From contig NZ_CP063373.1 in assembly GCF_015160855.1 (NCBI RefSeq), forward strand, positions 8,283,001 through 8,347,000: 64,000 bases of DNA. Direction: 5' to 3'. Made by a program: the position numbers and the translations under genes. Below are positions 15,506 to 48,249 of the stretch, in pieces. Within the stretch, counting starts at the first letter, position 1. Each line of letters opens with the position of its first letter. Under the pieces are notes generated by a model. The model was not told the origin of the DNA. It saw only the letters and a program-made list of their open reading frames with translations, and made no database searches. Source of the stretch: Streptomyces ferrugineus (GTDB lineage: Bacteria; Actinomycetota; Actinomycetes; Streptomycetales; Streptomycetaceae).

Positions 15506-15511
15506 ATGTAC

Positions 15512-16921
15512 GTGGCAGATGCGGCGCGCTCGCACAACGACACCGCGCACGACGGGGGAAAGACCGGCCGGTTCACCGGCATGGGTCCCTTCATGCTCGT
15601 CTGGAGCGGGCAGGCGATATCCCTGGTCGGCAACTCCGTCCTGCGGTTCGCCTTCGTCTTCGAGACCTGGTCGGCCACCGGCCGGGCCACCGCGCTCACC
15701 ACGCTCTCGCTGTGCGCGCTGCTCCCCCAGGTGCTGCTGAGCCCGCTCGCCGGGGCCTTCGTCGACCGGGTCAGGCGGCGTACGGCGCTCCAGCTCGCGG
15801 ACGGCGGCGGGCTGTTGATCGTGGCGCTGCTCGGCGTGCTGCACTTCACCGGCGGGCTGCACACCTGGGAGGTGTACGGCGCGGTGATGCTGCTCGGCTG
15901 CGCCGCCGCGTTCCAGTTCCCGGCGCTGGGCGCCGCCGTGCCGCTGCTGGTGGACAAGAGGCAGCTCCAGCGCGCGAACAGCCTGTTGGCGAGCGCCAAG
16001 AGCACGGCGGACGTCGGCGGTCCGGCGCTGGGCGGGCTGCTGGTGGCGTTCTCCGGGCTCGGCTTCATCCTGGTCGCCGACCTGGTGAGCTTCGCTCTCG
16101 CGCTGGTCGCGATCCGCGTCGTACGGCTGCGGGGGGACGGCGGCGCGGCGAAGCCGAAGGGCGGGGCGCGGGGGAAGCTCGTCGCCGAGGCCGTCGAGGG
16201 GATGCGGTTCCTGTTCCGGTTTCCGAGCCTGCGCGATCTGATGCTGGCGTTCTGCTTCGTCAACCTCGTCATGGTCTTCGGCTTCGCCGCCGTACAGCCG
16301 ATGGTGCTGGCCCGGTCCGGGGGCGAGACGTCGGCGCTGGCGAGCGTCAACACCGCGATCGGGGTCGGCGGGGTCGTCGGCGGGCTGCTGATGGCGGCCT
16401 GGAGCGGGCCGAGGAACCGGGCCCGGGGCATGCTGCTCGGCATCATCGGCATGTGCCTGTCCGCCCAGGTGGCGATGGCGCTGGTGGGCGGGGTGGTCGG
16501 CTGGTGCGCGGCCATTCTCGTGGGCGCGGCGCTGATGCCGATGATCAACGGCACGATGCAGGCGATCGTGCAGACCAAGGTGGACCAGGAGTGGCACGGC
16601 CGGGTCTTCGGCGCGGTGATGTTCCTGTCGCAGATCTCCGTCCCGCTGGCCACGGCGGTCTCCGGCCCGCTCGCCGACCATGTCTTCGAACCGCAGGCCG
16701 CCGCCGGCACCGGGATCTTCGTGGTGCTCGGGCCGCTGCTGGGCGACGGTCCGGGCAGCGGCATGGCCGCCATGCTGCTCATCGCGGGCCTGTGCGGCAT
16801 CACCGTCGCGGTGGTCGGCATGTCCCGGCGCACGGTGCGGGACATCGACGCGCTGCTGCCCGACGCCACCACCGACACCGCCGACGACAACCCCGAGAAC
16901 AGAGAACTCGTGGAGGGCTGA
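15512..16921 (+). CDS. MFS exporter, first gene of the biosynthetic operon
   Basis: 469 residues from GTG at 15512, which has GGGG 7 bp before it; the ATG at 15506 is too close to that site. About 12 membrane helices follow the major facilitator pattern, with the cytoplasmic motif after helix 2 seen as DRVRRRTALQLADGGG. It resembles the MFS_3/EntS-type drug and siderophore exporters. Standing 2 bp before the MbtH gene in an NRPS operon, it most likely exports the product and may give self-resistance. Confidence 0.85.
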   Translation: MADAARSHNDTAHDGGKTGRFTGMGPFMLVWSGQAISLVGNSVLRFAFVFETWSATGRATALTTLSLCALLPQVLLSPLAGAFVDRVRRRTALQLADGGGLLIVALLGVLHFTGGLHTWEVYGAVMLLGCAAAFQFPALGAAVPLLVDKRQLQRANSLLASAKSTADVGGPALGGLLVAFSGLGFILVADLVSFALALVAIRVVRLRGDGGAAKPKGGARGKLVAEAVEGMRFLFRFPSLRDLMLAFCFVNLVMVFGFAAVQPMVLARSGGETSALASVNTAIGVGGVVGGLLMAAWSGPRNRARGMLLGIIGMCLSAQVAMALVGGVVGWCAAILVGAALMPMINGTMQAIVQTKVDQEWHGRVFGAVMFLSQISVPLATAVSGPLADHVFEPQAAAGTGIFVVLGPLLGDGPGSGMAAMLLIAGLCGITVAVVGMSRRTVRDIDALLPDATTDTADDNPENRELVEG

Positions 16922-16923
16922 CC

Positions 16924-17130
16924 ATGACCACCAACCCCTTCGAGGACGAGGACGGCACCTATCTCGTGCTCACCAACGCCCAGGGCCAGCACTCGCTGTG
17001 GCCCGACGAGATCGCCGTGCCGGACGGGTGGGACGTGGCGCTGACCGCGAGCAGCCGTGCCGAGTGCCTCGCCTTCGTCGAGGAGCACTGGACGGACATA
17101 CGTCCCACCCGCACGGGTGCACATGCCTGA
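16924..17130 (+). CDS. MbtH-like protein
   Basis: 68 residues. It shows the family core: [24 protein letters not shown], then PDGW and a C-terminal EEHWTDIRP. MbtH proteins bind adenylation domains and are needed for folding or activity of many of them. Two bp after the exporter and overlapping the first NRPS by 8 bp, it probably serves the adenylation domains encoded downstream. Confidence 0.95.
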
Positions 17131-20100
17131 GGCGGGGGCAGCGGGGGCGTCGCACGGCGTGCATGGACGCTTCGAGGAACAGGCCCGGCGGACACCGGCG
17201 GCGACCGCGCTGGTGTGCGGTGACGAGCGGCTGAGCTACGGCGAACTCGACGCCCGCGCCGCCCGGTTGGCCGCGCTGCTGCGGCGGCGCGGGGTGCGGC
17301 CGGGGGCCCTGGTGGGCGTGCACCTCGAGCGGTCCGCGGAGATGGTGGTGGCGCTGCTCGGCGCGCTGAAGGCCGGCGCCGGCTACGTGATGCTCGACCC
17401 GGACTTCCCGGCGGAGCGGCTGCGCGGGATGGCGGCCGACGCGCGGGTCGCCGTGGTCGTGTCGCGGCGGGGGTGCCAACAGCCGCTGCCCTCCGTCGAG
17501 TCGGTGGCGGTGGAGGACGCCGAGCACTCCGGACCTCTTGAGCCCGGGTCCGTGGCCGTACGGCCGCACGACCCCGCCTGCGTCATGTTCACCTCCGGCT
17601 CCACCGGCCGACCGAAGGGCATCGTCGCCTCCCACTCCGCGATCACCGGGACGCTGACCGGGCAGGACTTCGCCTCCTTCGGGAGCGGCGCGGTGTGGTT
17701 GCAGTGCTCGCCGGTGTCCTGGGACGCGTTCGCGCTGGAGCTGTGGGGTCCGCTGCTGGGCGGCGGCCGGTGCGTCCTGCATCCCGGGCAGCGGCCCGAC
17801 CCGGTGCTGATGGCGGACCTGGTCGACCGGCACGCCGTGACGTCCCTGTACCTCTCCGCCTCCCTGTTCCATGTGATCGTCGACGAGTACCCGCGCGCCC
17901 TCGACGGAGTGCGCGAACTGATCGTCGGCGGCGAGCCGATGTCGCCCGCGCACGCGGCCCGCGCCCTGGAACGCCACCCCGGGCTGCGGCTGAGCAACGG
18001 CTACGGCCCGGTCGAGGGCATGGTCTTCCTGACCGTCCATCCGGTCACCGCCGAGGAGGTGCGGGACGGAAGGCCGGTGCCGATCGGGCGCCCGCTCAAC
18101 GGCAAGCGGCTGCGGGTGCTCGACGAGGGGCTGCGGCCCGTCGCGGACGGGGAGACCGGTGAGCTGTACGCCGCCGGGGCGGGTGTCGCGCTGGGCTACC
18201 GCGGCCGGCCCGGGCTGACCGCCGAGCGGTTCGTGGCCGATCCCTACGGGCCCGCAGGCGAGCTGATGTACCGCACGGGGGACCTGGTGCGGCGGCGGGC
18301 GGACGGGGTGCTGGAGTATCTCGGGCGGGCCGATGACCAGGTGAAGATCCGCGGGTTCCGGGTGGAGCCCGGCGAGGTGGAGACGGTCCTGGCCGGGCAT
18401 CCGGGGGTCGTCCGGGCGGCTGTGGTCGCGCGTCCCGACAGCACGGGTGACAAGCGGCTCGTCGCCTACGTCGTCCCAGGTGATCCGCGGCCGTCCGAGG
18501 GCGAGTTGCGCGAGCACGCCGCCCGTGTGCTGGCCGACTATCTGGTGCCGGCCGCCTTCGTGCTCCTGGACGCCCTGCCCCTCACCCCCAACGGCAAGCT
18601 GGACCGCGCCGCCCTGCCGGAGCCCGGCCCGATCACCGGCTCGCTCGCCTCGGCGTCCGCGCGGGAGCCGTCGGGCGAGGTCGAGCGGGCGCTGTGCGGG
18701 CTGTTCTCCGAGGTGCTGGGGGTGGCGTCGGTCGGTCCCGAGGACGACTTCTTCGACCTCGGCGGCAACTCGCTGATGGTGACCCGGCTGCTGGGCCGGA
18801 TCCGGCTGACGCTGAGCGCGCCGATCGACGTACGGACGCTGTTCGAGTGCCGGACGCCGGCGGCGCTGGTGCCGCACGTGGCGAGGGCGGAGCGGGACGA
18901 ACCGGCCGCCGCACCCGCCCCGCCGCCGGACGGGGGCGCGCTTGCCCTGTCGTACGCCCAGCGCCGCCTCTGGTTCCTCGACCGGGTCGACGCCGGTACC
19001 GCCTACACCCTCCCGGTGCTGGTGCGGCTGCGCGGCGGGATCGACGCCGAGGCCCTTCGGGCGGCCCTCGCGGACGTGGCCGCGCGGCAGACGGTGCTGC
19101 GTACCGTCTTCGAGGAGCGCGACGGTGAACCGGGGCAGCGGGTGCTGAACGGCGACGCGGCCCGGCCCCGGCTCAGGCAGGTCGACGTCGATGCCGGTGA
19201 GTTGGCGGGGGCCGTCGCCGAGGCCGCCCGGCATCGCTTCGACCTCGCGGCCGAACTCCCCCTGCACGCCGTGCTGTTCGGGGTCCGGGACCGGCCCGGT
19301 GAGCACGCCCTCCTGCTCGTGCTGCACCACATCGCGGGCGACGGCTGGTCGCTGCCCCCGCTGTTCCGGGACCTGTCGCACGCCTACGCCGCCCGGGCCT
19401 CCGGTGCCGAGCCGGGGCTGGCCCCGCTGCCCGTCCCGTACGCCGAATTCGCGCGGCGTCAGGCGGAGCGGCTCGGCTCGGCGCACGCGCCGGGGTCGCT
19501 CGCGGCGGCCCAGCTCGACTTCTGGCACAAGGCCCTCGCCGATCTCCCGCCCGGCGGGCCGCTGCTCCCCCGCCGCCCGGGGCGCCCCGCCGTGCCGGGC
19601 CGGGACGCCGCCACCGTCGTACGGCGGCTGGACGCGGCGGCGCACGCGCGGATCGTCGAAGTGGCGCGGGCACAGGGCGCGACGCTCTTCATGGCGCTGC
19701 ACGCCGCTCTCGCCGCCGTGCTGGTGCGGGCGGGGGCGGGCGAGGATCTGGCGGTCGGGTCGCCGATCGCCGGGCGCGGGCACGACGGCACGGTGGACGA
19801 CGTCGTCGGGTTCTTCGTCAACATGCTGGTGCTGCGCACCGACGCCTCCGGCGACCCCACCGTCCGGCAACTGCTCGCCCGCACGCGGGAGACGGCTCTG
19901 GACGCCTTCGCCCACCAGGACATGCCGTTCGAGGAGGTCGTGGAGGCGCTCAATCCCGTACGGCCGCCGGGACGGCAGCCGTTCACGGAGGTGGTGCTGG
20001 CGTTGCAGAACAACGCCCGCGCCGGCGTGGACCTGCCCGGTGCCCGGGCCGGGGTGGAGCCGTTACGCACCGGCACCGCGCGGTTCGAGCTGCTGGTCGA

Positions 20101-20677
20101 CGTGACGGACGATCACTCCCCGTCGGGGGCGCCGGACGGCATGACGCTGGTCTTCGAGTACCGGACCTCGTGTCTGGAGCCGGAGTTCGTCCAGTGGCTG
20201 GCGGACGCGGTCGTCGAGGCGCTGTGCGCGGCGGCCGACGAGCCGGACCGTCCGCTGTCCCGGCTTCCGCTGCCCGAGCCTCCCCGGCGTGCGGACGCGG
20301 GCCGGGACACGGTCCGCGCCCCCGCCGTCGCCACCGGCACCCCGGCGGACTCCGCACTGCACCGGGAGATCGCCGCCGTCTGGTCCGACGTCCTCGGCGT
20401 CGACGGCGTCGGCCCGCACGACGACTTCTTCCGGCTCGGCGGCAACTCGCTGCGCGCGGTGCGGGTCGCGGCCCGTCTCACCGGCGCCGGGCGCACGGTG
20501 ACCGCCGCCCAGCTCTTCACCTCGCCCACCGTCGCCGCCCTCGCCGCCGAGCTGGAGCGGGCACCGGCCGACACACCCGCGGCACCGGCGCCCATCCCGC
20601 GCCGGCCGCGCGTGCCCCGACAGCCCGGCCGCGAGGGCCGTACCGACACAGGTCAGAAGGAGGTGCCATGGAGCTGA
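17123..20677 (+). CDS. NRPS, A-T-C-T
   Basis: 1184 residues from the ATG at 17123 inside the mbtH stop. Domains: adenylation (about 20-500; A3 core [11 protein letters not shown] near 156), carrier T1 (GGNSL, Ser550), condensation (about 610-1050; HHIAGDGWS near 735, LCL-like), carrier T2 (GGNSL, Ser1109). No adenylation domain lies between C and T2, so T2 must be charged in trans. My manual read of the specificity pocket is D-A-L-L-I-G-G-V-F, suggesting a hydrophobic substrate, but this is weak. With an N-terminal A domain it is the likely loading module. Codon 981 is TTA, read by the bldA tRNA. Confidence 0.9.
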
Positions 20678-21723
20678 GCGTGATGTTCTTCGGCGCGGAC
20701 GCCCCCGGCGGGAGCGCGGCCCGCCACAGCGAGGCCTACGACGACATCCTCACCGTCGCCCGGACCGCGGACCGGCTCGGCTTTCACGCGATCTGGACGC
20801 CCGAGCGGCACTTCCAGCAGGTGGGGCAGGTGTTCCCCAGCCCGCCGGTGCTCAGCGCGGCGCTCGCGGTGGCCACCGAGCGGATCAACATCCGGGCGGG
20901 CAGCGTGATCCTGCCGCTGCACCATCCGCTGCGGATCGCGGAGGACTGGGCGGTCGTCGACAACCTCTCGCACGGCCGGATCGGCCTGTCGGCGGCGACG
21001 GGCTGGCACTCCGCCGACTTCGTACTGGCCCCCGACCACTACGAGGGCCGCCGCGAGCGGACCCTGCGGGACATCCCGCTGCTGCGCCGGCTGTGGGCGG
21101 GCGAGGCGGCCGAGTTCACCGACGGCACCGGCGCCGAGGTCACCGTCCTGCCGCAGCCCCGGCCCGTGCAGCACACCCTGCCGCTGTGGCTGACCACCTC
21201 CGGCAACCCGGCGACCTGGGAGGCCGCCGGAGGTCTGCGCACCGGCGTCCTGGGGGCGACCGTCGGGCAGAGCAGGGAGGAGCTGGCCGAGAAGATCGGC
21301 CGGTACCGGGCCGCCTGCGCCGCCGCGCCGGAGCAGGGCGGCACCGACGCGCACGGCCGGGTGACGCTGATGGCGCACACGTTCGTCGGCGCGGACGACG
21401 AGGAGGCACGGCGGCTGACGGCCGCACCGCTCAAGCGGTATCTGCAGTCGTACGTACGGCAGACCACGGCGAACCGCACGGCCGACAGGGCGACGGCGGA
21501 GCTGACCGAGGAACAGACCGCGCTGCTCGCCGAGTTCGCCTTCCACCGCTATCTGACCTGGGGCAGTCTGCTCGGCTCCGCCGAGAGCTGCCGCAAGATG
21601 CTCGCCGATCTGCGCGAGCTGGGCTGTGACGAGGTCGCCTGCTTCGTGGACTTCGGCCTCGGCCGCGACGAGATGCTGGCCGGGCTGCACCGGCTGGCCG
21701 AACTCCGGGAGGACGTGGCGTGA
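20668..21723 (+). CDS. FMN-dependent luciferase-like monooxygenase (MupA/Atu3671 type)
   Basis: 351 residues; the start is preceded by AGGAGG and overlaps the NRPS stop by 10 bp. The TIM-barrel luciferase-like pattern is plain: [50 protein letters not shown]. This subgroup (natural-product luciferase-like monooxygenases) occurs inside or next to NRPS/PKS proteins and is thought to oxidise carrier-bound intermediates using reduced FMN. Lying between two NRPS genes it probably hydroxylates or N-oxidises a residue on the line. No flavin reductase is seen nearby. Confidence 0.85.
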
Positions 21724-24700
21724 GCGGCGCTTCGGGCACGTCGATGGCGGACCGTTTCAGCGCGCTCAGCGGTGAGCAGCGCGTCCGCCTGATGCGGCGG
21801 CTGGTGGAGTCCGGGCAGGCGGGGCTGATCCCCGCGGTGGTGCCTCGGCGCGACGGGGACGGGCCGGTGCGGCTCAGCCCGGCGCAGGAGGACCTGTGGG
21901 TGTACGAGTCGCTGTATCCCGGCACTCCGGCGCTCAACCTGTGCTGTGCCTACCACTTCGACGACCCGGTCGACGCGGACCTGCTGGAGACGGCGCTGAC
22001 GCTGGTCCGGGCGCACCACGACATCCTGCGGGCCCGTATCGAGGGCGAGCCGGGTGCGCTGAGCGTCACGTTCCCGCCCGAGGAGCGCTTCCGGCTGGAG
22101 CGGGAGGACCTGCGCGGCACCGGCACCACCATCGCCGAGGCCTTCGAGACGTTCCGGCGCCGTCCCTTCGACCTGGCCGGTGAGCCGCTGATGCGGGCCC
22201 GGTTCGTCACGGTCGACGACCGGCGGACCACGCTGATGCTGAGCCTGCACCACGTCATCGCCGACTGGTGGTCCTTCGACGTGCTCCAGGCCGAGTTCGC
22301 CGCGGCCCACGGGGCGCTGCGCTCGGGTACGGCGGGGACCGCGCTGACCCGGCCCCCCATCCAGTACGCCGATTTCGCCTCCTGGCAGGGCGAGTTGGAG
22401 GAGGCCGGGGTCTTCGAGGCGCGGCTGGCGTTCTGGCGCCGCTACCTCGCCGAGCCGCCCGGGCCGCTCACCGTGCCCGGGGCCCGCGCGGGGTCGTCCG
22501 AGGAGATCGCCCAGATCCCGTTCCGCGTCGACGCCGACACCGCCCGGGCCGTACGGGCGCTGGCCCGGGAGCGCGGCGCGTCCGTGTACGTCGTGCTGAT
22601 GGCGGCCTTCGCGGTCCTGGCGCACCGCCTCACCGGCGCCGACGACATGGTGCTCGGCACCCCGACGGCCAACCGGGCCGCCAAGGGCCTGGAGCGGGTC
22701 ATCGGGTACGTCATGAACGCCATCCCCACCCGCTGGCGGATCCGGACCGGCGACTCCTTCGCCGACGTACTGGCCCGGTTCGCGGCCGACTTCCCCGAGC
22801 TGATGGCCAACGCCGACGTGCCGGTGGGGCGGATCGTCTCGGCGGTCGCGCCGGACCGCAGCGCCGGGCGCTCCCCGCTGTTCCAGTGGGTGTTCATGCA
22901 CCTCACCCAGCAGCGCAGCGTGGCCGCGCTGCGGGAGTTCAGCGAGCCCGAGCGGATCCACACGGGCGGCGAGCACGACCTGGTGGGCATCGTCCGGGAC
23001 GCCGACGACGGGGCGATGGACGGCAGCTTCGAGATCCGTACGGCCCTCTTCGACGCGGATGCCGTGCGGCACTGGACGGACGCGTACCTGGAGCTGCTGC
23101 GGCGCTTCACCGCGGAGCCGGAGGTGCCGCTGGCCGAGGTGGGGCTGGTGCCCGAGGCCGACCGGCGCCGGGTGGCGGAGCTGAGCTCCGGCGGGCCCGC
23201 GCCCGAGCCGCTGACCCTGCCCGACCTGGTCGCCCGGCAGGCGGCCCGCACGCCTGACGCGCCGGCGCTGGAGACCGGGGCGCTGGCGCTGACCTACGCC
23301 GATCTTGTTACGCGCGTTGATCAGTTGGCCTCCGTGTTCGCCGAGTACGGGGCGGGGCCCGGTGAGGTCGTGGCCCTCGCGTTGGGGCGCACCGGCGCGA
23401 TGACGCCTGCGCTGCTGGCGGTTCAGCGGACTGGTGCCGCGTACTTGCCGATCGACCCCGACTATCCGCCGGAGCGGGTTTCGATGGCGTTGGCGGATGT
23501 GGGGCCGGTGTTGGTGGTTGTGGGGGAGCGGGGGGTGCCGGTCGATACGGATGTGTCGACGTTGATGCTGAGCTCTTCGCTGGAATTGCCACGTGATGCC
23601 GTCGATCGGCTGCCGCGCCGTCGTGGCTCGTCGCGCCCACGCGGCGGTAGCCGCAAATCGACAACAGCCCCGCGCCCCTATGGGGCGCCGGCACCCGCGT
23701 ACGTCATACACACCTCCGGCTCCACTGGCCGTCCCAAGGGCGTCGTCGTCCCGCACACCGGGCTTGCCGCCCTCGCCCAGGGCCTCGTGGATGCCATGGC
23801 GCTGACCCCGGACAGCAGGGTGCTGCAGCTCGGCTCGCCCGCCTTCGACATCTCCCTGGGCGAGATGTGCATGGCGTTCGGCTCGGGCGGGACGCTGGTC
23901 GTGGCGCCGGAGGGGCCGCTCACCGGGCAGGAGCTGGGTGATGTGCTCACCGGGCGGCGCATCAGTGCCGCCCTCGTGCCGCCCTCCGTGCTCGCGACCG
24001 TCCCCGCCGGGCAGTACCCGGAGCTGCGGTCGCTCGCCGTGGGCGCGGAGGTGTGTCCGCCGGAGCTGGTGGCGCGCTGGGCCGTCGGCGGGCGCCGGTT
24101 CCACAACGCGTACGGGCCCACCGAGTGCACCGTCGGCGCCACCGTCTCCGGCCCGCTGACCGGCGACGGCACCCGGCCGCCGATCGGCGCGCCGCTCCCG
24201 GGCACGCGCGCGTACGTCCTGGACGAGCGGCTGCGGCCGGTGCCGCCGGGGGTGTGCGGTGAGCTGTATCTGGCGGGGCCGGGGGTGGCGTACGGCTATC
24301 TGGGGCGGGCGGCGGCGAGTGCCGAGCGGTTCGTCGCCGATCCGTACGGGCCGCCCGGTGAGCGCATGTACCGCACCGGGGACCTGGCCCGCCGCCGGCA
24401 CGACGGGCAACTCGACTACCTGGGCCGGTCCGACGACCAGGTGAAGATCCGGGGGCTGCGGATCGAGCCGGGCGAGATCGCCGCCGTGCTCACCGGGCAT
24501 CCCTCGGTGGAGCGGGCGGTGGCCATCGTACGGGAGGACCGGCCGGGCCGGCCGCGGCTCGTCGCGTACGTCGTCGGCGGCGAGGGCGCCGAGCCGGTGC
24601 CGGGCGCGCTGCTGGCGTACGCCGCCGGGCGGTTGCCGGCCGCGATGGTGCCGGCCGACGTGGTGGTGCTGGACGCGCTGCCGCTGGCGCCGAACGGCAA

Positions 24701-26402: not shown

Positions 26403-29400
26403 TGGGCGCCCGTATCGCGGACGTGCTGCCGCTCTCCCCCGCCCAGGAGGGCCTGCTCTTCCATGCCCTGCGCGATCCGGAGCGCCCCGACCCGTATCTG
26501 GTGCAGGCCCGCTTCCGGGCCGGCCCGGACACGGCGCCCGAGGCGTTACGGGCCGCGGTGAGCGCGCTGCTGGAACGGCACCCCAATCTGCGGGCCTGCT
26601 TTCGGCACGCGCACGTCGACCGTCCGGTGCAGGTGATCCCGCGTGCCGTGAAACCGCCGTGGACGGAGATCGACCGCACCGGGCGGACGCCGGTCGAGAC
26701 GGAGGCGGAGCTGGCGCGTCTCATGGCGAAGGACCGGGAGCGCCGGTTCGACCTGGCCCGCCCGCCGCTGGTGCGGGCCACACTGGTCCGGCACGACGAG
26801 GGCGCCGAACTGCTGCTGACCTTCCATCACATCCTGCTGGACGGCTGGTCCCTGCCGTTGCTCGCGCGGGAGCTGGAGGCGCTGACGACAGGGGCCGCCG
26901 AGCTGCCGCCCGCCGTGCCGTTCAAGCAGTACCTGGTCTGGCTGCGGGGCCAGGACCAGGAGCGCGCGGAGGCCGCGTGGCGTGCGGCGCTGGGCGGGCT
27001 GACGCGGCCCGCGCCGCTGGCGCCGGAGGGCGCCGACGACGGCCCTCAGGACACCCTCGACATCGAGCTGACCCCCCGGCTGACAGCGGCGATCACCCGC
27101 CGGGCGGCGGACGCCGGTGTCACCGTCAACACCGTGGCGCAGACCGCCTGGGCCCTGGTCCTGGCCCGGCTGACCGGCGCCGACGACCTGGTCTTCGGCG
27201 CGGTCGTCTCCGGGCGGCCGCACGATCTGCCCGGCGTCGAGCGGATGGTGGGGCTGTTCATCAACACCCTGCCGGTGCGGATCGCGCTGCGCTCCGGCGA
27301 GGGCATCGACGAACTGCTGGCCCGGGTGCAGCGGGAGCAGCTCCGGCTGGCGCCGTATCATCACGTACGGCTGTCGCAGGTGCAGCGGGCGGCCGGGGCG
27401 GGCGAACTCTTCGACACGGTCCTGGCGTTCGAGAACTTCCCGCGTGCCGAGAGCGCCGCCCCGGCCGTCGAGCTGGTCGAGACGCGGGACGCGACGCACT
27501 ACCCGGTGACGATCGCCGTCGTCGCCGGCGAGCGGATGCTGCTGCGGGTGAGCTGCCGCCGGGGCGTGCCGGCGGCCGCGGTCGGCGCCCGACTGGTGCA
27601 CGCCTTCGAGGCGCTGACCTGCGCGAACGGCACCCCGGCCGACCGGCTCGACGTCCTCCCCGGGGAGGAGCGACGGCATCTGCTCGCCCTGGCCGACGGA
27701 CCGGCCCGTCCCCTGTCCGGTGCGCCGGGCATCCCCGGGCGCTTCGCCGAGCAAGTGGCCCGTACGCCGGACGCGCCGGCCGTCGAGTCCGGCGGTGCGG
27801 TGCTGACGTACGGCGATCTGGACGCGGCCTCCGACGGGCTGGCGGGGCGGCTGCGGGAGGCGGGAGTGCGGCCCGGCGACACGGTCGCGCTGCCGCTGGC
27901 CCGGTCCGTGTCCATGGTCGTCGCGCAGCTCGCGGTGCTGAAGGCGGGCGCGTGCTGTCTGCCGCTGGATCCGACGGCTCCGGCGGAACGGCTGGCGGCG
28001 CTGGTGGGGGCGGCCGGTGCGAAGGTGGCGGTCGGGGACGCACGACTGCCGTCGCGGATACGGGTGGTGGACCCCTCCGAACCGGACTCCGCCGCGCCAC
28101 CGGGCATGCCCGTGCCCGCCGAATCCGCCGCCTACGTGATGTACACCTCCGGCTCCACCGGCGAGCCCAAGGGCATCGTCACCCCGCACCGGGCCGTCGT
28201 GGAGCTCGCCGCCGACAGCCGCTTCGCGGGCGGTGCGCACCAGCGGGTCCTGCTGCACAGCCCGCACACCTTCGACGCCGCCACCTACGAGACCTGGGTG
28301 CCCCTGCTGAACGGCGGCACGGTCGTGATCGCCCCACCCGGGCCCGTCACACCCGAACTGCTCGAGCGGCTGCTGCCCGAAGCACGTGTCACGGCGCTGT
28401 GGCTGACGGCCGAACTGCTGCGCACCGTCGCGGAGATCGCGCCCGGGGCGCTGGGCGCCGTGCGCGAGGTGTGGGCGGGCGGGGACGTGCTGGCGCCCGA
28501 GGCGGTCCGGCGGGTGCGCGAGCACTGCCCCGGCACCCGGGTGGTCAACGGCTACGGGCCCACCGAGACGACGGTGTTCGCCACGGCCCACCCGGTGACG
28601 GGGGACGTCGGCGCGTCCGTGCCCGTCGGGCGGCCGCTCGACAACACCCGCGCCCATGTCCTCGACCACCTGCTGCGCCCGGTGCCGGCCGGAGCGGTGG
28701 GCGAGTTGTACATCGCCGGCACCGGTCTCGCGCACGGCTATCTCAACCGTGCGGGGCAGACCGCCGAGCGCTTCGTCGCCGACCCGTACGGGCCGCCCGG
28801 CGCCCGGATGTACCGCACGGGCGACCTGGTGCGCCGGCTGCCCGGCGGCGAGCTGGAGTTCCGGGGCCGGTCCGACGACCAGGTCAAGGTGCGCGGCTTC
28901 CGGATCGAGCCCGGCGAGGTGGAGGCCGCGCTGGCCGCGTGCCCCGGCGTGGAGCGGGCCGTGGTCGCCGCGCGCCCCGGGCCGGACGGCGGCAAGAAGC
29001 TCGTCGCGTATGTCGTGGGCGGCGACCTGGACCTCGTACGGGAGCATGCGGCGCGCACACTGCCCGCGCATCTGGTGCCGTCGGCGTGGGCCGCGCTGGA
29101 CGCCGTACCGCTGACCGCGCACGGCAAGGTGGACCGGGCCGCGCTGCCCGAGCCCGGGCCCGAGCGCCCGGGCCGGGGCCACGGCCGGATCGCCCGGCCC
29201 GGGCGGGAGCAGCGGCTGTGCGCGCTGTTCGCCCGGGCGCTCGGGACGGACGCGATCGGCCCCGACGCCGACTTCTTCGCGCACGGCGGCCACTCGCTGC
29301 TCGCCCTGCGCCTGACCGCGAGCATCCAGGCGGAGCTCGGGGCCCGGGTGTCGCCCGCCGCGCTGTTCGAGGCACCGACCCCGGCCGCGCTCGCCGCCCG

Positions 29401-30244
29401 GCTCGCCGCCGGGCAGGCCGGAGGGGACGACGAGGACGCCTACGCACCGCTGCTCGCCCTGCGCCGCGAGGGCGACCTGCCGCCGCTGTTCTGTCTGCAC
29501 CCGGGGCTGGGCCTCGGCTGGGGCTACGCGGCGCTGCTGCCGCACCTCGCCCCCGGCCGGCCGGTGTACGCGCTCCAGACACCGGCACTGCACGGCGAGC
29601 AGCTCCCCAAGACGCTGGGCGAACTGGCGGACGACTGTCTGCCGCGCATCCGGGCGGTGCGCCCGCACGGGCCGTATCTGCTGCTGGGCCGCTCCTTCGG
29701 CGGGCCCTTCGCCCATGAGCTGGCGGTGCGGCTGCGGGCGGCCGGTGAGGAGGTCGCGCTGGTCGCCGTGCTGGACGCGATGCCGAAGCCGCCCGAGGTG
29801 GCGCGGGTGCCGCTGGACCCGGCGGTCGTGGAGCAGGTGGCACTGGGCAACCTGCTGCGCAACGCGCTGCCCGGAGTGCCGGCCGGGCCCGGACCGCTGG
29901 ACCGCGCCGAGGTGATCGCCCGCGTCCACGCGCACAGCGCGCTCCTCGCCGACCTCGACGAACCGCGCCTCGGCGCACTGCTCGGCGCGATGGAGCGGTA
30001 CATCGAGATGGCCCGCGCCTGGCAGCCGTCGCCGTACGACGGCCGGGTGACCCTCTTCTCCGCGACCCGCGCCTCGGAGGCGAGCACCGAGGACAAGCGC
30101 ACGGCCTGGCGCGCCTGCGCGGCCGGGGTGGACGTACACGAACTGGACTGCGAGCACAGCGATGTGCTCACGCCGGGGCCGGTCGGCGAGATCGCCGCGG
30201 CCGTCGAGGACGTACTACAGGGGGAACGAACCGTTGGACGCTGA
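26402..30244 (+). CDS. NRPS, C-A-T-TE
   Basis: 1280 residues; its ATG overlaps the previous stop (TGATG). Domains: condensation of the DCL type (opening [23 protein letters not shown], His142), which fits an upstream epimerised D-residue; adenylation (core [11 protein letters not shown] near 581); carrier (GGHSL, Ser965); thioesterase (GRSFGG, Ser1098). The TE should hydrolyse or cyclise the finished chain, making this the terminal module even though more NRPS/PKS genes follow. Pocket estimate D-A-Y-L-W-G-G-V-F, uncertain. Codon 49 is TTA, a second bldA-dependent site in the operon. Confidence 0.9.
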
Positions 30245-33200
30245 AACGGACTCCACGGCCGAGGAGTACGAGTTCCCGGCCTCCGACGCGCAGAGCCGGC
30301 TGCTGGTCCTGGACCGGATGAACCCGGGCACCGCGCAGTACAACGTGCCCGCCGCCTACGCCGTGCACGGCCCGTTCGACGTGGCCGCGTTCGGCCGCGC
30401 GCTGGACAGCCTGGTCGCCCGCCACGAGTCGCTGCGCACGATGGTGCGGACGGCGCCGGACGGTACCGCCGTGCAGATCGTGGTGGCCTCGGCACGCGCC
30501 GCACTGACCGTCGAACGGGCCGTCCCCGCGAAGGACGTGGGCGACCTGCTGCGCGCCGAAGCAGCCCGCCCCTTCGACCCGGAGACCGGCCCACTGCTGC
30601 GCTGCACGGTGTACGCCCTCGACGACGGCAGCCACCGCGTCCTCCTGGTGGCCCACCATCTGGTCTGTGACGGCTGGTCGCTGGGCGTGCTGCTGCGCGA
30701 GCTGTCCGCCGCCTACGAGAACGAGACCAAGGGCCTGGCCCACACCCTTCCCGAACTGCCCCTGCAGTTCGCCGACTTCGCCGCCTGGCAGCGCGAACGC
30801 CAGGCGAACGGGGAGTACTCCCGCTCCGTGTCCCACTGGGTCGCACAACTGCGCGGCGCCCCGGAGACGGTGGCGCTGCCGCTGGACCGGCCGCGCGGGG
30901 CGGTCCGTACGGCGGCGGGCGGCACCGAACGGTTCACGCTGCCGGCCGGGGTGCGTGAGCGGATCGCCGAGACGGCCCGGGTGCGCGGCGGTACGCCGTT
31001 CATGGCGGTGTTCGCCGCGTACGCCGCGTTCGTGAGCCGGCTGTCCGGCGCCGAGGACCTGGTGATCGGATTCCCCGTCTCCGGCCGGGACCGCCCCGAG
31101 CTCCAGGACATGGTCGGCATGCTGACCAACACCCTCGCGCTGCGCGTCGACCTGTCCGGCGACCCGTCGTACCACGACCTGATCACCCGCCTGCGCACCG
31201 CGCTGCTGGACTCCCAGCCGTACCAGGACGCCCCCTTCGAGACGGTGGTGAACGAGGTCGCCCCGGCCCGCGAGATCAGTCACGACCCGGTCGTACAGGT
31301 GGTGTTCGGCTACGACGACGACACGGAGTTGACACTGAGGCTGGCTGGAGCGGAGGTGGAGCGGCTTCATGTGGGGCTGGACAGCGCCAAGTTCGACTTC
31401 CATCTCCAGGTGGAGCGCTGGGGCGAGGACCTCGCCGCGTACCTGATCTACCGCAGCGCGCTGTTCGACGCGGAGACGGTACGGCGGTGGGTGGGGTGCT
31501 TCGAGACGCTGCTGGACGGCTTGCTGGAACGACCCGGGGCACCGCTGTCGACCATCGACATGCTGCCGGCGGATGAGAGGGACAGACTGCTCGCGCAAGG
31601 GACCGCGACGCCGCCAAGGGGCGCGGGGCTGTCATCAGACCGCCTCGTACCTGACCTGATCGCGGACCGGGCCGCCGCCCAACCGGACACGACGGCCCTG
31701 GTGTACGGCGAGCTACGGCTGACGTACCGCGAACTCCTGGAGCGCGCAGACCACTTGGCGGCCCTCCTGCACAAGCGAGGCGTCCGCCGAGGAGACCGCG
31801 TCGGCCTGCTCCTCCCCCGCGGCGCCGACATGGCCATATCCGCCCTCGCGGTGCTGCGCGCGGGCGCCGCATACGTCCCACTGGACCCGGCACATCCCGC
31901 CGCCCGCCTCGCCTACATGATCACCGACTCCGGTACGTCCCTCCTGCTGACGGCGAGGGAAACGACGGCCCTGGCCGGAACCGACGTACCGGAACTCCGA
32001 GTGGACGAACACACGGAAGCCGCCCCGCCACGCGTCCCCGTGCCCTGCACCCCCGACGACCTCGCCTACGTCCTCTACACCTCCGGCTCCACCGGCGTCC
32101 CCAAGGGCGTGGCCGTCGAGCACCGAGCCCTGCGCAACCTCGCGGTGAACGTCCGCCCCGTGTTCCCGGTGACCGGGACGGACCGTGTCCTGCAGTTCGT
32201 GTCGTTCGGCTTCGACGTGGCCGTGTCCGACCTGTTCTTCCCGTGGGTCGCGGGCGCGGAGCTGCACATCGCGCAGGAGGACGAGCGGCTGGGCGAGGCG
32301 CTGCAGGCACGGCTGCGGGACTCCCGCGTCACGTACGTCTTCCTGCCGCCGTCCGCCGCGATGACGCTCCCCCGGGCACCGGGCGCGCTGCCGGAGCTGC
32401 GCACCCTCGCGGTCGGCGGCGAGGCGTGCCCGGCCGAGCTGGTCGAGCGGCTCGGCGAGGAGGGACGGCGGATCGTCAACGCGTACGGCCCCAGCGAGGC
32501 GACGGTGTACTCGACCACGGCCGAGCTGCGCCCGGGCGAGCCGGTGGTGATCGGTCACGCGGTCCCCGGCTCCCGCGCCCACGTACTGGACGGCCGGCTG
32601 CGGCCGGTCCCGGTCGGCGTGACCGGCGAACTGTATGTCGCGGGCGCCACCCTGGCCCGCGGCTACATCGGCCGGCCCGGCATGACCGCCGAACGCTTCG
32701 TCGCCGACCCCTACGGCCCGCCCGGCAGCCGTATGTACCGCACGGGCGATCTATGCCGGATCGACGCGCACGGCGTGCTGCACTACCTGGGCCGGGGCGA
32801 CTCGCAGGTGAAGCTGCGCGGTTACCGGATCGAGCTGGGCGAGATCGAGGCGCTCCTCGCGGGGCACCCCGACGTCACGGTGGCCGCTGCCGCAGTGCGC
32901 GGGGAGGGCGCCGAACAGCGGCTGGTGGCCTACCTCGTCACCACCGCCGACGTGCCGGACACGGCGCTGCGCGCCGACCTGGCCGGCCGGCTCCCCGGCT
33001 ACATGGTCCCGGAGGTCTTCGTACGCCTGCCGGAGCTGCCCCTGAACCGCTCGGGCAAGGTCGACCGGTCCCGGCTGCCCGAACCGCCCTCCACCCGGCC
33101 CGCGTTGAGCGAGTCGTACGCCGCTCCACGTACCGAGGCCGAGTGGCGGGTGGCCCGGGTCTGGCAGCGGGTGCTGACCCTGGACCGGGTCGGCGTCCAC

Positions 33201-33449
33201 GACAACTTCTTCGACCTGGGCGGCAATTCGGTACGGCTGCTGGCCGTGCTCGCCGCGCTCCAGGACCACCCGGAGTACCGGGACCTCACCCTGATCGACC
33301 TGTTCCGGCATCCGACGGTCGCCGCCGCGGCGGCGCATCTCGACCGTACGGCCGAGCAGACCGCACCGCACGAGGAGGCGGCCCGGCGCGGCAGCGACCG
33401 CCGGGCGGCCGTGCACAAGCTCCGTTCCAGGAAGGGCACGACGCGATGA
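30234..33449 (+). CDS. NRPS, C-A-T
   Basis: 1071 residues from a TTG at 30234, preceded by GGGGGAA and overlapping the TE-module gene by 11 bp; longer frames run into the TE region. Domains: condensation (HHLVCDGWS, His141, LCL-like), adenylation (core [11 protein letters not shown] near 614) and carrier (GGNSV, Ser999). There is no terminating domain, so its peptide must pass to another protein, most simply the KS-ACP encoded next. Pocket estimate D-V-S-F-A-G-A-V-Y, not confidently assigned. The C-A linker contains a 16-nt inverted copy of the dispersed repeat found in the C-A-T-E gene. Confidence 0.88.
31617..31632. repeat. Fragment of the dispersed repeat in the C-A linker
   Basis: AGGGGCGCGGGGCTGT is the exact reverse complement of 23664-23679 in the adenylation-domain repeat. 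It falls in the flexible linker between condensation and adenylation domains, encoding roughly PPRGAGLSS, where extra residues are harmless. Confidence 0.5.
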
Positions 33450-35482
33450 CGACCGAGGAAGCAGCACCGCACGATCTGGAGTCCGCGGTGGCCGTCGTGG
33501 GGATGAGCGGACGCTTCCCCGGCGCCCCCGACCTCGACACGTACTGGGCCAACCTGCGCGACGGTGTCTGCTCCATCTCCACCTTCACGGAGAAGGAGCT
33601 GCTGGCCGACGGGGCGGACGAGGCGGAGGTGCGCGCTCCGGCGTACGTCCCCGCCCAGGGCCGGCTCGCCGACGCGGACCGCTTCGAGGCGGACCTCTTC
33701 GGCTTCAGCGGCAGCGAGGCGGCGGCCCTCGACCCACAGCACCGGGTGCTGCTGGAGACGGCCTGGTCCGCCCTGGAGGACGCCGGGTACGCCCCGCTGA
33801 ACGCGCCCCGGCACACCGGCGTCTACGTCGGCGGCAGCCCGACCGAACACGCCCTGGCCGCCGGCACCGACCCCGCGCTCGCCGCGTCGATCGGCGCTCT
33901 TCAGGTCCGTATCCTCACCGACCGCGAGTTCCTGGCGCCCTGGATCTCCTACCGGCTGGGCCTGGACGGCCCGAGCATGACGGTCCAGACGGCCTGCTCG
34001 ACCTCCCTGACGGCGGTCCATCTCGCCGTGCAGGCCCTGCTGCTGGGCGAGTGCGACACGGCGCTCGCGGGCGGCGTGTCCATCGGCAGTGTGCGCAGGC
34101 AGGGCTATGTCCACTTCCAGGGCGGGATCTTCTCTCCCGACGGCCGCTGCCGGCCCTTCGACGAGAAGGCGGCCGGCACGGTGCCGGGCAGCGGGGTGGG
34201 CGTACTGGTGCTGCGGCGGCTTCAGGACGCGCTGGCCGACGGCGACCCGGTGCGCGCGGTGATCCGGGGCACGGCGGTCACCAACGACGGTTCCGGCAAG
34301 GTCGGCTTCACCGCTCCGGGGGTGGACCAGCAGACGGCGGCGATCACGGAGGCATGGTCGGCGGCGGGTCTGGAGCCGTCGGCGGCGCAGTACGTGGAGG
34401 CGCACGGGACCGGGACGGAGCTGGGGGACCGGATCGAACTGGCGGCGGCGAGCGCGGCGTTCGCATCCGGCGCGGACACCGACATCGCGCTGGGCTCGGT
34501 GAAGTCGAACATCGGGCACGCGGACGCGGCGGCCGGGGCGGCGGCGCTGATCAAGACGATCCTGATGCTGGAGCACACGACACTGGCCCCGACGGTGGAC
34601 GTCACCAGTCCGGTGGCCGCTCTCCAGGACTCACCGCTGCGCCTGGTGACCCAGGCGCGGGAATGGCCGGGCAGACCGGGCCTGCCCCGGCTGGCGGGCG
34701 TGACGTCGGTGGGCATCGGCGGCACGAACGTGCATGTGGTGGTGCAGGAGGCTCCGGAGCGCCGGTCACCCGCGAGTGCCGCGCCGCGTCCGGTCGTACT
34801 GCCGCTGTCGGCCCGCACAAAGTCACAGCTCGCGCTGGTCGCCGACCGGCTGGCGAGGCGTCTGCGCGACGCGGACGACGCCCCATGCCTGGCCGATGTC
34901 GCGCACACCCTGCGCACCGGCCGGGTCGGGATGCCCGTACGCGCCTATGTCGTGGCGGCCGGCGTACGGGAGGCGTCGGACAAGCTGACGGCCCTGGCCG
35001 AGGGCCGCCGGGACACGGTGACGGACCCGCTGGGCGAGGCATGGCTGAGGGGCGAGGAGGTGACCTGGCCGGCCCTCGACGGCGCGGTACGGCGGGTGCG
35101 GCTCCCGGCGTATCCGTTCGCGGGCGAGAGCCACGGCGCCCTGACGCTGCGCAGGCCGGCGGCGGAGGCGACCGAGCTGCCGTCATCGGCGCCGGAGGAC
35201 GAACTCGACGCCAGGGTCGCCGCGTTGGTGATCGAGGCGCTGGATCTGGGCGATGCCGCCGCTCTGGAGCGGACGTACTTCGAGGCGGGCGGTGACTCGC
35301 TGACGGCCGTTCATCTCGCCGGCAGGCTGCGCGACGAGATGGGCGTCGACGTACCGATCCAGCTGTTCCTGGAGCCGGTCACCCTCAAGGAGATGACGAC
35401 CCGGATCGTGGAGATGAAGCAGAACGGCGACGCGGACGGCGCTCTGGACGCGCTGCTCGCCGAGTTCGAGGCGGAGTCGTGA
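33446..35482 (+). CDS. PKS module, KS-ACP without acyltransferase
   Basis: 678 residues overlapping the previous gene by 4 bp. The ketosynthase is complete: Cys184 in TACSTSL, His in [11 protein letters not shown] and His in [12 protein letters not shown]. The usual post-KS linker with LPAYPFAGE follows, then an acyl carrier domain (GGDSL, Ser618). No acyltransferase, reductase, dehydratase or thioesterase domain is present. Malonyl loading would have to come in trans, for example from the fatty-acid synthase transacylase. Its place after the C-A-T protein suggests it extends a peptidyl intermediate by two carbons. Confidence 0.9.
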
Positions 35483-36231
35483 CCGTCTTCGATGTCCGCA
35501 CCCGCTGGCTCCGGGGCGTGGGCGCACCCGGCGCGAAGATCCGCCTGGTGTGCTTGCCGCACGCGGGCGGGGCGGCGAGCTCCTTCCACGCCTGGACGGC
35601 GCTGACGCCTCCGGAGGTCGAGGTCGTGTCGGTGCAGTACCCGGGCCGCCAGGACCGGCTGTCCGAGCCCTGCCCGGCCACGATGGAGGAGCTGGCGGAC
35701 GCGGTCACGAACGCCCTGCTGCACGAGCTGACGGACGATCTGCCGCTGGCGCTGTTCGGCCACAGCATGGGGTCGGCGGTGGCGTACGAGGTGGCCCGCC
35801 GGCTGGCGGAGATCCCCGGCCGCACCGTCACCCGGCTGATCGTGTCGGGCCGCAGCCGGCCCCGCACGGCGCGGGAGCTGGCGCCGCGCCCGGCCCCGGC
35901 CGACGCGGAGATCCTGGACTACGTCCGGGTGCTGGATCCGGGGGGCGCGGCGGTCTACGAGCATCCCGCGCTGCGGGAGGTGATCATGCCGTCCCTGCGG
36001 GCGGACTTCGGGATCCTGGCCAGGTACCGGCCGACTCGACTGCACCGGCTGGACGTTCCCGTGACGGCGTGCGGGGGCGACCGCGATCCCGCGTGCGCGG
36101 TGGCGGGCCTGTCCCAGTGGGCGGACGTCACGACGCAGGGGCTGGAGATCCGGGCCTTCGAGGGGAACCACTTCTATCTCAACCCGAGGAGGGAGGAGTT
36201 GGTCGAGTTCGTCGTGGGGCGTGTGCTGTGA
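35479..36231 (+). CDS. Type II thioesterase
   Basis: 250 residues from GTG at 35479, overlapping the PKS by 4 bp. It is an alpha/beta hydrolase with the usual opening CLPHAGGAASSFHAW, the nucleophile in GHSMGS and the catalytic His in GNHFYL near the end. Free-standing thioesterases of this kind remove wrongly primed or stalled groups from carrier domains. It is the last gene of the tightly overlapping part of the operon. Confidence 0.95.
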   Translation: MTVFDVRTRWLRGVGAPGAKIRLVCLPHAGGAASSFHAWTALTPPEVEVVSVQYPGRQDRLSEPCPATMEELADAVTNALLHELTDDLPLALFGHSMGSAVAYEVARRLAEIPGRTVTRLIVSGRSRPRTARELAPRPAPADAEILDYVRVLDPGGAAVYEHPALREVIMPSLRADFGILARYRPTRLHRLDVPVTACGGDRDPACAVAGLSQWADVTTQGLEIRAFEGNHFYLNPRREELVEFVVGRVL

Positions 36232-36307
36232 GGCGGTTCTCATTCCGCATGTGCCGGACTTGAGATGGGCATGTTTGCCTTTCAACGACCCGAGGAGGCA
36301 TGCCGAG

Positions 36308-37579
36308 ATGAGCGAGGCACCCCCCAGGCCCCGCAGGGTCGTCGTCACCGGGCTTGGGGCGGTCACGCCGCTGGGTGTCGGGGTCGGGGAGCTGTGGCGG
36401 GGGCTGCTCGACGGGCGGCACGGGATACGGGAGCTGGCCGGGGAGGAGTTCGCCGGGCTGCCGGTGCGGGTCGCCGGGGTCGTGCCCGTGGACCCCGCCG
36501 GGCTGCTGCCCCGGCCGATGGCGCGGCGGATGAACCGGGCCGCGCAGTTCGGGGTGCTGGCGGCGCGGGAGGCGTGGGTCGATGCCGGGTTCACGGCGGG
36601 CGGGACCCGGGAGAGCGGGGTCGATCCGGCGCGGGTGGGGGTGAGCCTCGGGGCCATACTCGGTGACGCGTCCGTGCTGGTGGGCGGGGACCGCAGGCTG
36701 CGGGAGAAGGGGCCGCGGGCCGTCTCGCCGCTCACCACTCCGATGACGGTGCCCTCGCAGGCCGCCTCCCAGGTCTCCCTCGACCTGCACATCACCGGCG
36801 AGGCCCGGACCGTGACGAGCGCGTGCGCGTCGGGGACGGAGGCGATAGGGCAGGCGATCGACCGCATACGGTACGGGCGGATCGACGTGGCGCTCGCGGG
36901 CGGCGCCGAAGCGGTCGTCACGCCGGCGATCATGGCGTCCTTCGCGGCGATGCGGGCGCTGGCCGGCGGGGACGCGGCGTCGGGCCTCTCCCCCTCCCGC
37001 CCGTTCGCCAAGGACCGGGCCGGGTTCGTCAACGGGGAGGGCGCCGGGATCCTCGTCCTGGAGGCCGAGGAGCACGCGCGAGCCCGGGGTGCGCGGATCT
37101 ACTGCGAGGCCGCGGGCTGGGGACTGTCGGCCGACGCCCACCACATGGCGGCGCCCGACCCGTCCGGGCACGGCATCGCGCTGGCGGTGCGGCGGGCCCT
37201 GCGGGATGCCGGGGCCGGTGTCCCGGACGTCGTCCACGTCAACGCCCACGCCACGGCGACGACCGAGGGCGATCTCGCGGAGGCGGGCGCGCTGCAGGCG
37301 GTGCTCGGGGACCGGGCGGTGCCGGTCACCGCGCTCAAGGGACACCTGGGGCATCTCCAGGGCGCGGCGGGCGGGGTGGAGGCCGTGGCCGCCGCGCTGA
37401 CGCTGCGGCACGGGGTGATACCGCCGACCGCGGGGTGCCTCGAGGTCGACGACGCGATCGGGCTGGACGTGGTGACGGGGGCGGCGCGGGCGCTGCCGGA
37501 GGACGGGGACGTGGTGCTGAGCAATTCCTTCGGGTTCGGGGGGCACAACGCGGTGCTGGCGCTGCGGCGGGTGGGGTGA
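36308..37579 (+). CDS. Discrete beta-ketoacyl synthase, FabF type
   Basis: 423 residues from ATG at 36308, 9 bp after AGGAGG. The KAS II fold is complete with Cys173 in SACASGTEA, His in NAHATATTEGD and His in GHLGHLQGAAG. It follows the thioesterase after a 76-bp gap with its own ribosome-binding site, so it may belong to the operon or be expressed separately. Possible jobs are making a fatty starter for the peptide, acting with the KS-ACP carrier, or generic fatty-acid elongation. No cognate carrier protein or ketoreductase gene is adjacent. Confidence 0.85.
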   Translation: MSEAPPRPRRVVVTGLGAVTPLGVGVGELWRGLLDGRHGIRELAGEEFAGLPVRVAGVVPVDPAGLLPRPMARRMNRAAQFGVLAAREAWVDAGFTAGGTRESGVDPARVGVSLGAILGDASVLVGGDRRLREKGPRAVSPLTTPMTVPSQAASQVSLDLHITGEARTVTSACASGTEAIGQAIDRIRYGRIDVALAGGAEAVVTPAIMASFAAMRALAGGDAASGLSPSRPFAKDRAGFVNGEGAGILVLEAEEHARARGARIYCEAAGWGLSADAHHMAAPDPSGHGIALAVRRALRDAGAGVPDVVHVNAHATATTEGDLAEAGALQAVLGDRAVPVTALKGHLGHLQGAAGGVEAVAAALTLRHGVIPPTAGCLEVDDAIGLDVVTGAARALPEDGDVVLSNSFGFGGHNAVLALRRVG

Positions 37580-37766: not shown

Positions 37767-38831
37767 TCACGCCGTACGTTTGCGTGAGGCCGTCTTCTTC
37801 GCCGCCGTCTTCTTCTGCGCCGTCTTCTTCTGCGCCGTCTTCTTCGTGGCCGTCGACTTCTTCGCCGTGCTCTTCGCGGCCGTCTTCTTCGTGCCCTGGG
37901 CCGACTTCGCCGTCGACTTCCTGGCCGGCGCCGCGGTCTTCTTCGCCGCCGTCCTCTTCGTGGCCGTGGACTTCTTGCCCGTCGGCTGCTTCGGGGCCGC
38001 TCTGGCCGACTTGCGCTGGGGCAGGCGTCTGACCTCGGCCTCCTCCGGTTCCTCGCCGCGGGATTCCTTGGCCGCGCGGACGCTGCTCTCCAGGGCCGCC
38101 ATGAGGTCGAGGACCTTGCCGCCGGCGGCGGGCTCGGGGGCGGCCGGCGGGGCCTCGCCGGCGGCCTTCGCGGCGATGACCTCCTCGACGGCCTCGCGGT
38201 ACTCGTCGTGCAGGTCCTCCAGCTCGACCTCGCCGAGGGTGTCCATCAGGGCGTCCGCGAGATCGAGCTCCTTGTCGCGGACGGTGACGTCGGCGTCGGG
38301 GGCGACGCCCTCGGGGGCGCGGACCTCGTCGGGCCAGAGCAGGCCGTGCATGGCGATGGCGTCGCCGACGACCCGGAGCATGCCCAGCCGCTCCCGGCCG
38401 CGCAGCGCGAACTTGGCGATGGCGACCTTGTTGCTGCGCTTGAGCGCCTCGCGCAGCAGGGTGTACGGCTTGGCGGCCGGGGCGCCGCTCGCGGCGAGGT
38501 AGTACGCGGCGTCCATCTGGAGCGGGTCGATCCGGTCGCCCGGCACGAAGGCCACGATCTCGATCGTCTTCGCCGTGGGGATGGGGAGCTGGGCCAGGTC
38601 CTCGTCGGTGATCGGGATGATCGAGCCGTCCGCGTCCTCGTACCCCTTGCCGATCTCGGCCTGGCTGACCTCGCGGTCCTCCACTTCGCAGAACTTGCGG
38701 TAGCGGATCCGGCCGCCGTCCTCGGTGTGGATCTGGCGGAAGGAGATCGAGTGGCTCTCGGTCGCGTTCACCACCTTGATCGGGATGCTGACCAGGCCGA
38801 AGGAGATGGCGCCGTTCCATATGGATCGCAC
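37767..38831 (-). CDS. ku: Ku, DNA-end-binding protein of NHEJ
   Basis: 354 residues from GTG at 38831, chosen because it gives the canonical start (M)RSIWNGAISFGLVSIPIKV with AAAGG 8 bp upstream; GTG at 38840 is possible. The Ku core covers about 1-250. It ends in a long Lys/Ala/Thr tail of KKTA-type repeats, as in other Streptomyces Ku proteins, which helps DNA binding. As a dimer it threads onto double-strand ends and recruits LigD. It is divergent, with a 51-bp shared promoter region, from the LigD polymerase gene. Confidence 0.95.
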   Translation of the reverse strand: MRSIWNGAISFGLVSIPIKVVNATESHSISFRQIHTEDGGRIRYRKFCEVEDREVSQAEIGKGYEDADGSIIPITDEDLAQLPIPTAKTIEIVAFVPGDRIDPLQMDAAYYLAASGAPAAKPYTLLREALKRSNKVAIAKFALRGRERLGMLRVVGDAIAMHGLLWPDEVRAPEGVAPDADVTVRDKELDLADALMDTLGEVELEDLHDEYREAVEEVIAAKAAGEAPPAAPEPAAGGKVLDLMAALESSVRAAKESRGEEPEEAEVRRLPQRKSARAAPKQPTGKKSTATKRTAAKKTAAPARKSTAKSAQGTKKTAAKSTAKKSTATKKTAQKKTAQKKTAAKKTASRKRTA

Positions 38832-38882
38832 GTTCAGCACCTTTCGAGGCGGTTCCGGCCGATTTCATGTGATTCTCATCGT

Positions 38883-48160: not shown

Positions 48161-48249
48161 GCCCCGCAGGCTCACACGTAGTAGACGCGGGGTCAACAAG
48201 TCTTGCGCAAGGGATTGACGACCTTGCTGACAGGCAGTCTCATAAGCAC

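Follow-up and report, generated by a model that had tools for sequence, protein, structure and literature searches.

A hybrid cluster of nonribosomal peptide synthetase (NRPS) and polyketide synthase (PKS) genes lies on the forward strand of the Streptomyces ferrugineus genome (one contig, 9.96 Mb), at positions 15506-36231 of the analysed window, a 64,000-nucleotide stretch of contig NZ_CP063373.1 (8,283,001 to 8,347,000). Its product is, on balance, probably a linear peptide Val-Val-(3-amino-2-oxo acid)-D-Leu-Val, most likely the alpha-ketoamide protease inhibitor poststatin. Pfam and NCBIfam assign nine genes with strong scores, in the order already read in a preliminary description of the window: a major facilitator superfamily (MFS) exporter, an MbtH-like protein, an NRPS with adenylation, thiolation, condensation and second thiolation domains (A-T-C-T), a luciferase-like monooxygenase (LLM), three NRPSs of C-A-T-E (E, epimerization), C-A-T-TE (TE, thioesterase) and C-A-T architecture, a ketosynthase-acyl carrier protein (KS-ACP) and a type II TE (TEII) (Table 1). 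Between most neighbouring genes there is no gap, or an overlap of a few bases, which is typical of a single operon. The preliminary description expected a small oxidized peptide with one D-residue and possibly a polyketide extension, which agrees with the structures given for the ichizinones and poststatin in the sources cited below. It left the product unassigned, a view that gives way because a published cluster, ich, shares this core gene set and its products are known.

Table 1. Genes of the cluster and its right-hand neighbour, in window coordinates
Feature	Position	Strand	Evidence
MFS exporter (ichB counterpart), left cluster edge	15506..16921	+	Pfam MFS_1 4.8e-24; after p14358 in G206 and G318
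MbtH-like protein (ichA counterpart)	16924..17130	+	Pfam MbtH 1.5e-25
NRPS A-T-C-T (ichC counterpart)	17123..20677, start inferred	+	Pfam; A1 code DALYIGGVFK
LLM, flavin mononucleotide type (ichD counterpart)	20662..21723	+	TIGR04020 387.6 bits, cut-off 244.45
NRPS C-A-T-E (ichE counterpart)	21720..26402	+	Pfam; E domain seen as a second condensation-type stretch, also TIGR01720; A2 code DIGLAGAVGK
NRPS C-A-T-TE (ichF counterpart)	26402..30244, start inferred via TGATG overlap	+	Pfam; A3 code DAYWWGGVFK
NRPS C-A-T (ichG counterpart)	30162..33449, start uncertain	+	Pfam; A4 code DVSFAGAVYK
KS-ACP without acyltransferase (ichH counterpart), acidic C-terminal tail	33446..35482	+	Pfam
Type II TE, right cluster edge	35479..36231	+	Pfam Thioesterase 1.7e-44; Ku next in G206 and G318
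Discrete FabF-like KS, Ku neighbour, not a pathway gene	36311..37579	+	Synteny across genomes

The ichizinone cluster ichA-ichP of Streptomyces sp. LV45-129, published in June 2025, contains according to its gene table MbtH, MFS and NRPS proteins, an LLM of the flavin mononucleotide (FMN) type, three further NRPSs, a type I PKS made of KS and ACP only, a thioesterase and a cyclase, with Ku adjoining (PMC12144821). The core gene set of the window matches the tabulated ichA-ichI apart from the MFS/MbtH order, and sequence comparison confirms an ich-type core, predicted to make a peptide of the ichizinone/poststatin kind, a class already known. As far as the published description extends, the two clusters share MbtH, MFS, the FMN LLM, a KS-ACP without acyltransferase (AT), a type II TE, Ku nearby and four NRPS proteins for which like assignments may hold (Val, Leu plus E, Val plus TE and an unpredicted A domain). 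They differ in that the window MFS gene precedes MbtH, Ku lies at the opposite end, and counterparts of the described ichK-ichO (ATP-binding cassette transporter, regulators) were absent among the scanned neighbours, a DUF5753-type regulator excepted, which also occurs in genomes without the cluster. TEII is not conserved: outside the clade of the window, where present, it is 34-40% identical and on the opposite strand (39% identical, other strand, in the ich-type locus L163); the window protein may share the function described for ichI and is perhaps not its orthologue. A further difference from the published cluster is that no relative of the SRPBCC cyclase gene ichJ stands beside the window cluster (best match in the genome 37% identical, 1.6 Mb distant). 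Queried with the ichJ-like protein of L163, such a gene adjoins the cluster in 2/32 genomes (G399 and G396). PF10604 matches number at least 12-32 per genome across 27 genomes; in the four related genomes G393, G394, G395 and G397 one lies ~13-16 kb downstream of KS-ACP, at sites that the L163 query did not recover, and a second kind of cyclase-like gene may stand near these clusters.

Poststatin, described in 1991, corresponds to ichizinone A in its open form, with one more Val at the N-terminus. The cited accounts give poststatin as L-valyl-L-valyl-3-amino-2-oxovaleryl-D-leucyl-L-valine from S. viridochromogenes (PMC3991021; also PMC8154582), and the ichizinones as cyclized pyrazinones of Val, an oxidized 3-amino acid (ethyl, benzyl or methyl side chain), D-Leu and L-Val, with the formula C21H34N4O5 for ichizinone A (PMC12144821). 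By our own arithmetic, the reported formula equals Val + 3-amino-2-oxovaleric acid + Leu + Val - 4 H2O - 2 H, and ichizinones B and C fit likewise. With ichJ, or without the N-terminal Val, attack of the free amine on the ketone could form the pyrazinone ring of the ichizinones. The window module set would yield Val-Val-X-D-Leu-Val provided that A1 serves both T domains, which would fit the Val-Val-postine-D-Leu-Val reported for S. viridochromogenes MH534-30F3. The second half of the A-T-C-T protein is intact (C motif HHIAGDG, last T motif GGNS), the A1 code appears Val-like by resemblance, D-Leu is expected from C-A-T-E by analogy, and the A3 code is a Val code by its match to the reported DAYWWGGT(FK) (PMC9113097; PMC6920865), with C-A-T-TE presumably supplying the C-terminal Val. 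We infer that the A4 substrate of the C-A-T protein later becomes the alpha-keto-beta-amino acid residue. A syntenic cluster with the same flanks is present in S. viridochromogenes NRRL 3413 (L007, L160), a strain other than the known producer. Poststatin is the best fit because the extra C-T is intact, ichJ does not adjoin and the A3 and A1 codes are Val and Val-like, respectively; it thereby gains a candidate gene cluster and a tie to the ichizinones. In a search of openly licensed papers (also for JBIR-56 and postine), none of the titles listed dealt with poststatin genes, no poststatin-ichizinone link was found, and the ichizinone paper does not figure among those containing the word poststatin; the titles likewise showed no bestatin or amastatin gene cluster.

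An LLM scan of species genomes returned 39 loci (L003-L041) with no less than 60% identity, spread over Streptomyces, Nonomuraea, Micromonospora, Actinocatenispora and further taxa, and the same gene order recurs across genera, which places the arrangement beyond chance. Directly after the LLM, 38/39 loci have a C domain resembling the one in the window C-A-T-E, the exception being the decayed L029, and the C-A-T-TE protein stands away from its usual place in L027, L036 and L040. Two loci, L015 and L022, show the ich gene arrangement over the part read, with Ku upstream and A-T-C-T as the IchC counterpart; L018 and L028 carry A-T only at the first synthetase. The HHxxxDG motif of C1 is found in 31/39 loci, and the eight others comprise two with A-T only, three too short, one decayed, one lacking A-T-C-T upstream of the LLM and one with the motif unmatched. 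In the decayed copy (L029/L175), MFS is shortened, pieces of A1 and C1 are joined and T-KS stands directly after the LLM.

Several observations weigh against poststatin. The product is predicted here from genes, and the T-TE part of the NRRL 3413 cluster is just 53-60% identical to that of the window. The A1, A2 and A4 codes had no match in the published literature searched, and the lack of a printed match for A1 as well lowered our confidence in poststatin. The ich-order loci L015 and L022 carry A-T-C-T, yet the ich products, as reported, hold a single N-terminal Val, so the additional C-T may have no role, or the N-terminal Val may be clipped off later. An ichizinone-type tetrapeptide Val-X-D-Leu-Val (pyrazinone or open form) made with the extra C-T silent is worth weighing, and we regard it as rather unlikely: each of the three products reported for ich is a tetrapeptide with one N-terminal Val (PMC12144821) and both A-T-C-T and A-T forms occur among the relatives, but the C1 motif is widely retained, no ichJ relative adjoins the window cluster, and poststatin, a known natural product, has exactly Val-Val (PMC3991021). 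It is improbable that the product is a novel peptide unrelated to those of ich, with only domains in common between the clusters; the three unmatched codes would allow it, but the gene set is the same as in ich and the order nearly so, the A4 code is identical in the ich-type L163, and the LLM falls within the ich clade (100/100 support).

In the LLM tree (53 rows), the 13 ich-type rows, drawn from the 39 loci and the window, form that one branch, and LLMs inserted in A domains (19/53 rows, plus six doubtful) lie outside it. The LLMs of L067 and L074 may be its nearest relatives, with a long-branch warning. The window LLM belongs to the FMN-dependent MupA/Atu3671 family, and F420 families remain below their own cut-offs (best 25 of 26 matches). 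Its nearest solved structure is PuwE (6ket); the predicted model has a mean pLDDT of 73 and is poor over residues 49-105, and only the fold match was used.

For the origin of the keto residue, the context speaks rather for an in-line route, in which an alpha-amino acid is extended with malonyl and then oxidized by the LLM. A1 would load both carriers of A-T-C-T and C1 would join Val-Val, whereupon C-A-T would add 2-aminobutyrate (Abu) or, alternatively, Ala or Phe. The KS-ACP, lacking an AT and receiving its malonyl unit in trans, would elongate the Abu-type residue, and the FMN-type LLM would oxidize the newly added carbon to the alpha-keto level with loss of one carbon. This could proceed, for example, by double alpha-oxidation of the beta-ketoacyl thioester and then a Baeyer-Villiger-like insertion, leaving an activated alpha-ketoacyl group for amide formation as carbon dioxide is lost. 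C-A-T-E would then add D-Leu, C-A-T-TE would add Val and release the peptide, the MFS protein would export it and TEII would clear misloaded carriers. KS-ACP lacks an AT and retains an LPAYPF stretch, which we take to resemble a residual post-AT linker. Three comparisons argue for the in-line route: other Streptomyces have homologues of KS-ACP, at 75-82% identity, that carry a fused thioester reductase (P0044, P0047-P0064); a KS-ACP paralogue follows a plain A-T in L161 (G396; tblastn and frames only); and L067 and L154 each combine A-T, KS-AT-ACP and LLM, while the ten frames scanned there include no aminotransferase. An in-line KS step is described as shown for coralinone (PMC10979478) and as proposed for pepstatin (PMC12081711). 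Against it stand the cost of one carbon, whereas the published route costs none, and the origin of PuwE, described from a beta-amino acid system with an aminotransferase.

The published route, which concerns the origin of this one residue only, is in our estimate a serious candidate short of being probable. It has KS-ACP join an acyl-CoA (acetyl-, propionyl- or phenylacetyl-CoA) to malonate, TEII release the resulting beta-keto acid, a distant aminotransferase convert it to a beta-amino acid, C-A-T load this free beta-amino acid and the LLM carry out alpha-oxidation (PMC12144821). It was proposed by the ichizinone authors, balances carbon without loss, and draws on the 2-hydroxylation of a beta-amino acyl chain assigned to the related PuwE LLM domain (PMC4219810); deletion of ichI is reported to leave product traces only (PMC12144821). 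However, the gene scan of the window cluster and its surroundings turned up no aminotransferase, and C-A-T immediately precedes KS-ACP in 24/26 stretches; of the two exceptions, one is a paralogue of the reductase type and the other is decayed. In A4, Asp235 is also retained and residue 230 is Val, a mark of alpha-amino acids. Moreover, the three beta-amino acids fed to the ichH deletion reportedly failed to rescue it, with the authors' caveat of poor uptake or lost protein contacts (PMC12144821). The origin of the alpha-ketoamide becomes a matter of labelling predictions that separate the two routes. It is a tentative proposal that this is the missing poststatin cluster and that C-A-T, AT-less KS-ACP and FMN LLM form a general machine converting a carrier-bound alpha-amino acid plus one net carbon into an alpha-keto-beta-amino acid; if in-line extension is true, it offers a compact means to install a protease-inhibiting ketoamide in peptides.

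An acidic LLxE-type tail terminates KS-ACP in 26/30 rows (four genomes counted twice); it is absent in the L161 paralogue and the decayed L029/L175, and the L036 sequence is cut. The tail fits a hand-over to the next synthetase, without proving it. Together with the helix before C2 it gives a hint of a short linear motif (SLiM)/beta-hairpin docking pair, and only a hint because that helix is not established as a beta-hairpin domain. A cytochrome P450 gene comes next after KS-ACP in L168, L170 and L173, likely a tailoring variant, and the L161 paralogue is flanked on both sides by frames resembling P450s by eye. In Rhodococcus rhodnii (L162, 6062-15973, minus strand), KS-ACP is directly followed by a frame of 3303 aa that gives matches to C, LLM (41%) and KS. 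Positions 6589-16534 of L154 are another small LLM cluster, in which A-T, KS-AT-ACP, LLM and TEII have a discrete KS (71%) and a gene for homoserine dehydrogenase in their vicinity.

Three described systems resemble parts of this scheme. In the pepstatin cluster pepA-J, C-A-T likewise stands beside a KS module with truncated AT and malonate extension of an amino acid is proposed; however, PepI is an F420-dependent ketone reductase, and the pepstatin account, in its accessible part, mentions no E domain (PMC12081711). A pepstatin-like statine pathway is ruled out by the LLM family. Coralinone CorA is described as extending a dipeptide in line through its KS before cyclization and oxidation to a pyrazinone, but CorA has an AT, its stated domain string includes no LLM, and its beta-keto acid decarboxylates to a 5-methyl group rather than giving a carboxamide (PMC10979478). 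The PuwE oxygenase domain of puwainaphycin belongs to the same LLM family and is assigned oxygenation at the 2-position, giving a 3-amino-2-hydroxy acyl product with an aminotransferase involved; unlike the window LLM, it is embedded with that aminotransferase and acts on a fatty chain (PMC4219810). A microginin/puwainaphycin-type route is ruled out, as the cluster proteins include no aminotransferase.

The discrete KS, which the preliminary description counted in the gene set, does not belong there. When 392 Streptomyces genomes were searched with its protein sequence, 57 more matches of no less than 64% identity appeared, for which up to ~18 kb upstream and ~1.5 kb downstream were fetched (6/57 cut by contig ends). 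Ku follows the discrete KS in 43/57 stretches, many in cluster-free genomes, and the NRPS cluster lies beside it in only six (L103, L104, L108, L112, L114 and L115). Conversely, G206 and G318 have the entire cluster from MFS to TEII and then Ku, without the KS. A close LLM occurs in 18/392 genomes, and the discrete KS adjoins the cluster in seven of these (the window and the six stretches). Among 18 KS-ACP stretches outside the clade of the window (L162-L179) the gene was not found, weak KS matches of 27-32% falling on other KS domains. A Ku-linked KS in cluster-free genomes and KS-free clusters together make the discrete KS a boundary gene and rule it out as a pathway enzyme. L105, L106, L109 and L119 have the left-flank genes of the window followed by TEII, KS and Ku, with the NRPS genes absent, and look like deletion scars of the cluster; L111 is similar but also lacks TEII. 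Ku lies near the cluster in three different arrangements (L022, L015 and L168; window 37767-38840), which suggests a preferred cluster site.

Elsewhere in the window, a helicase-like AAA protein with a PLD-type domain (5720-9016, minus strand) adjoins a stretch of lower GC content (1-6 kb), and two divergent AurF-like N-oxygenase genes lie at 47054-49188.

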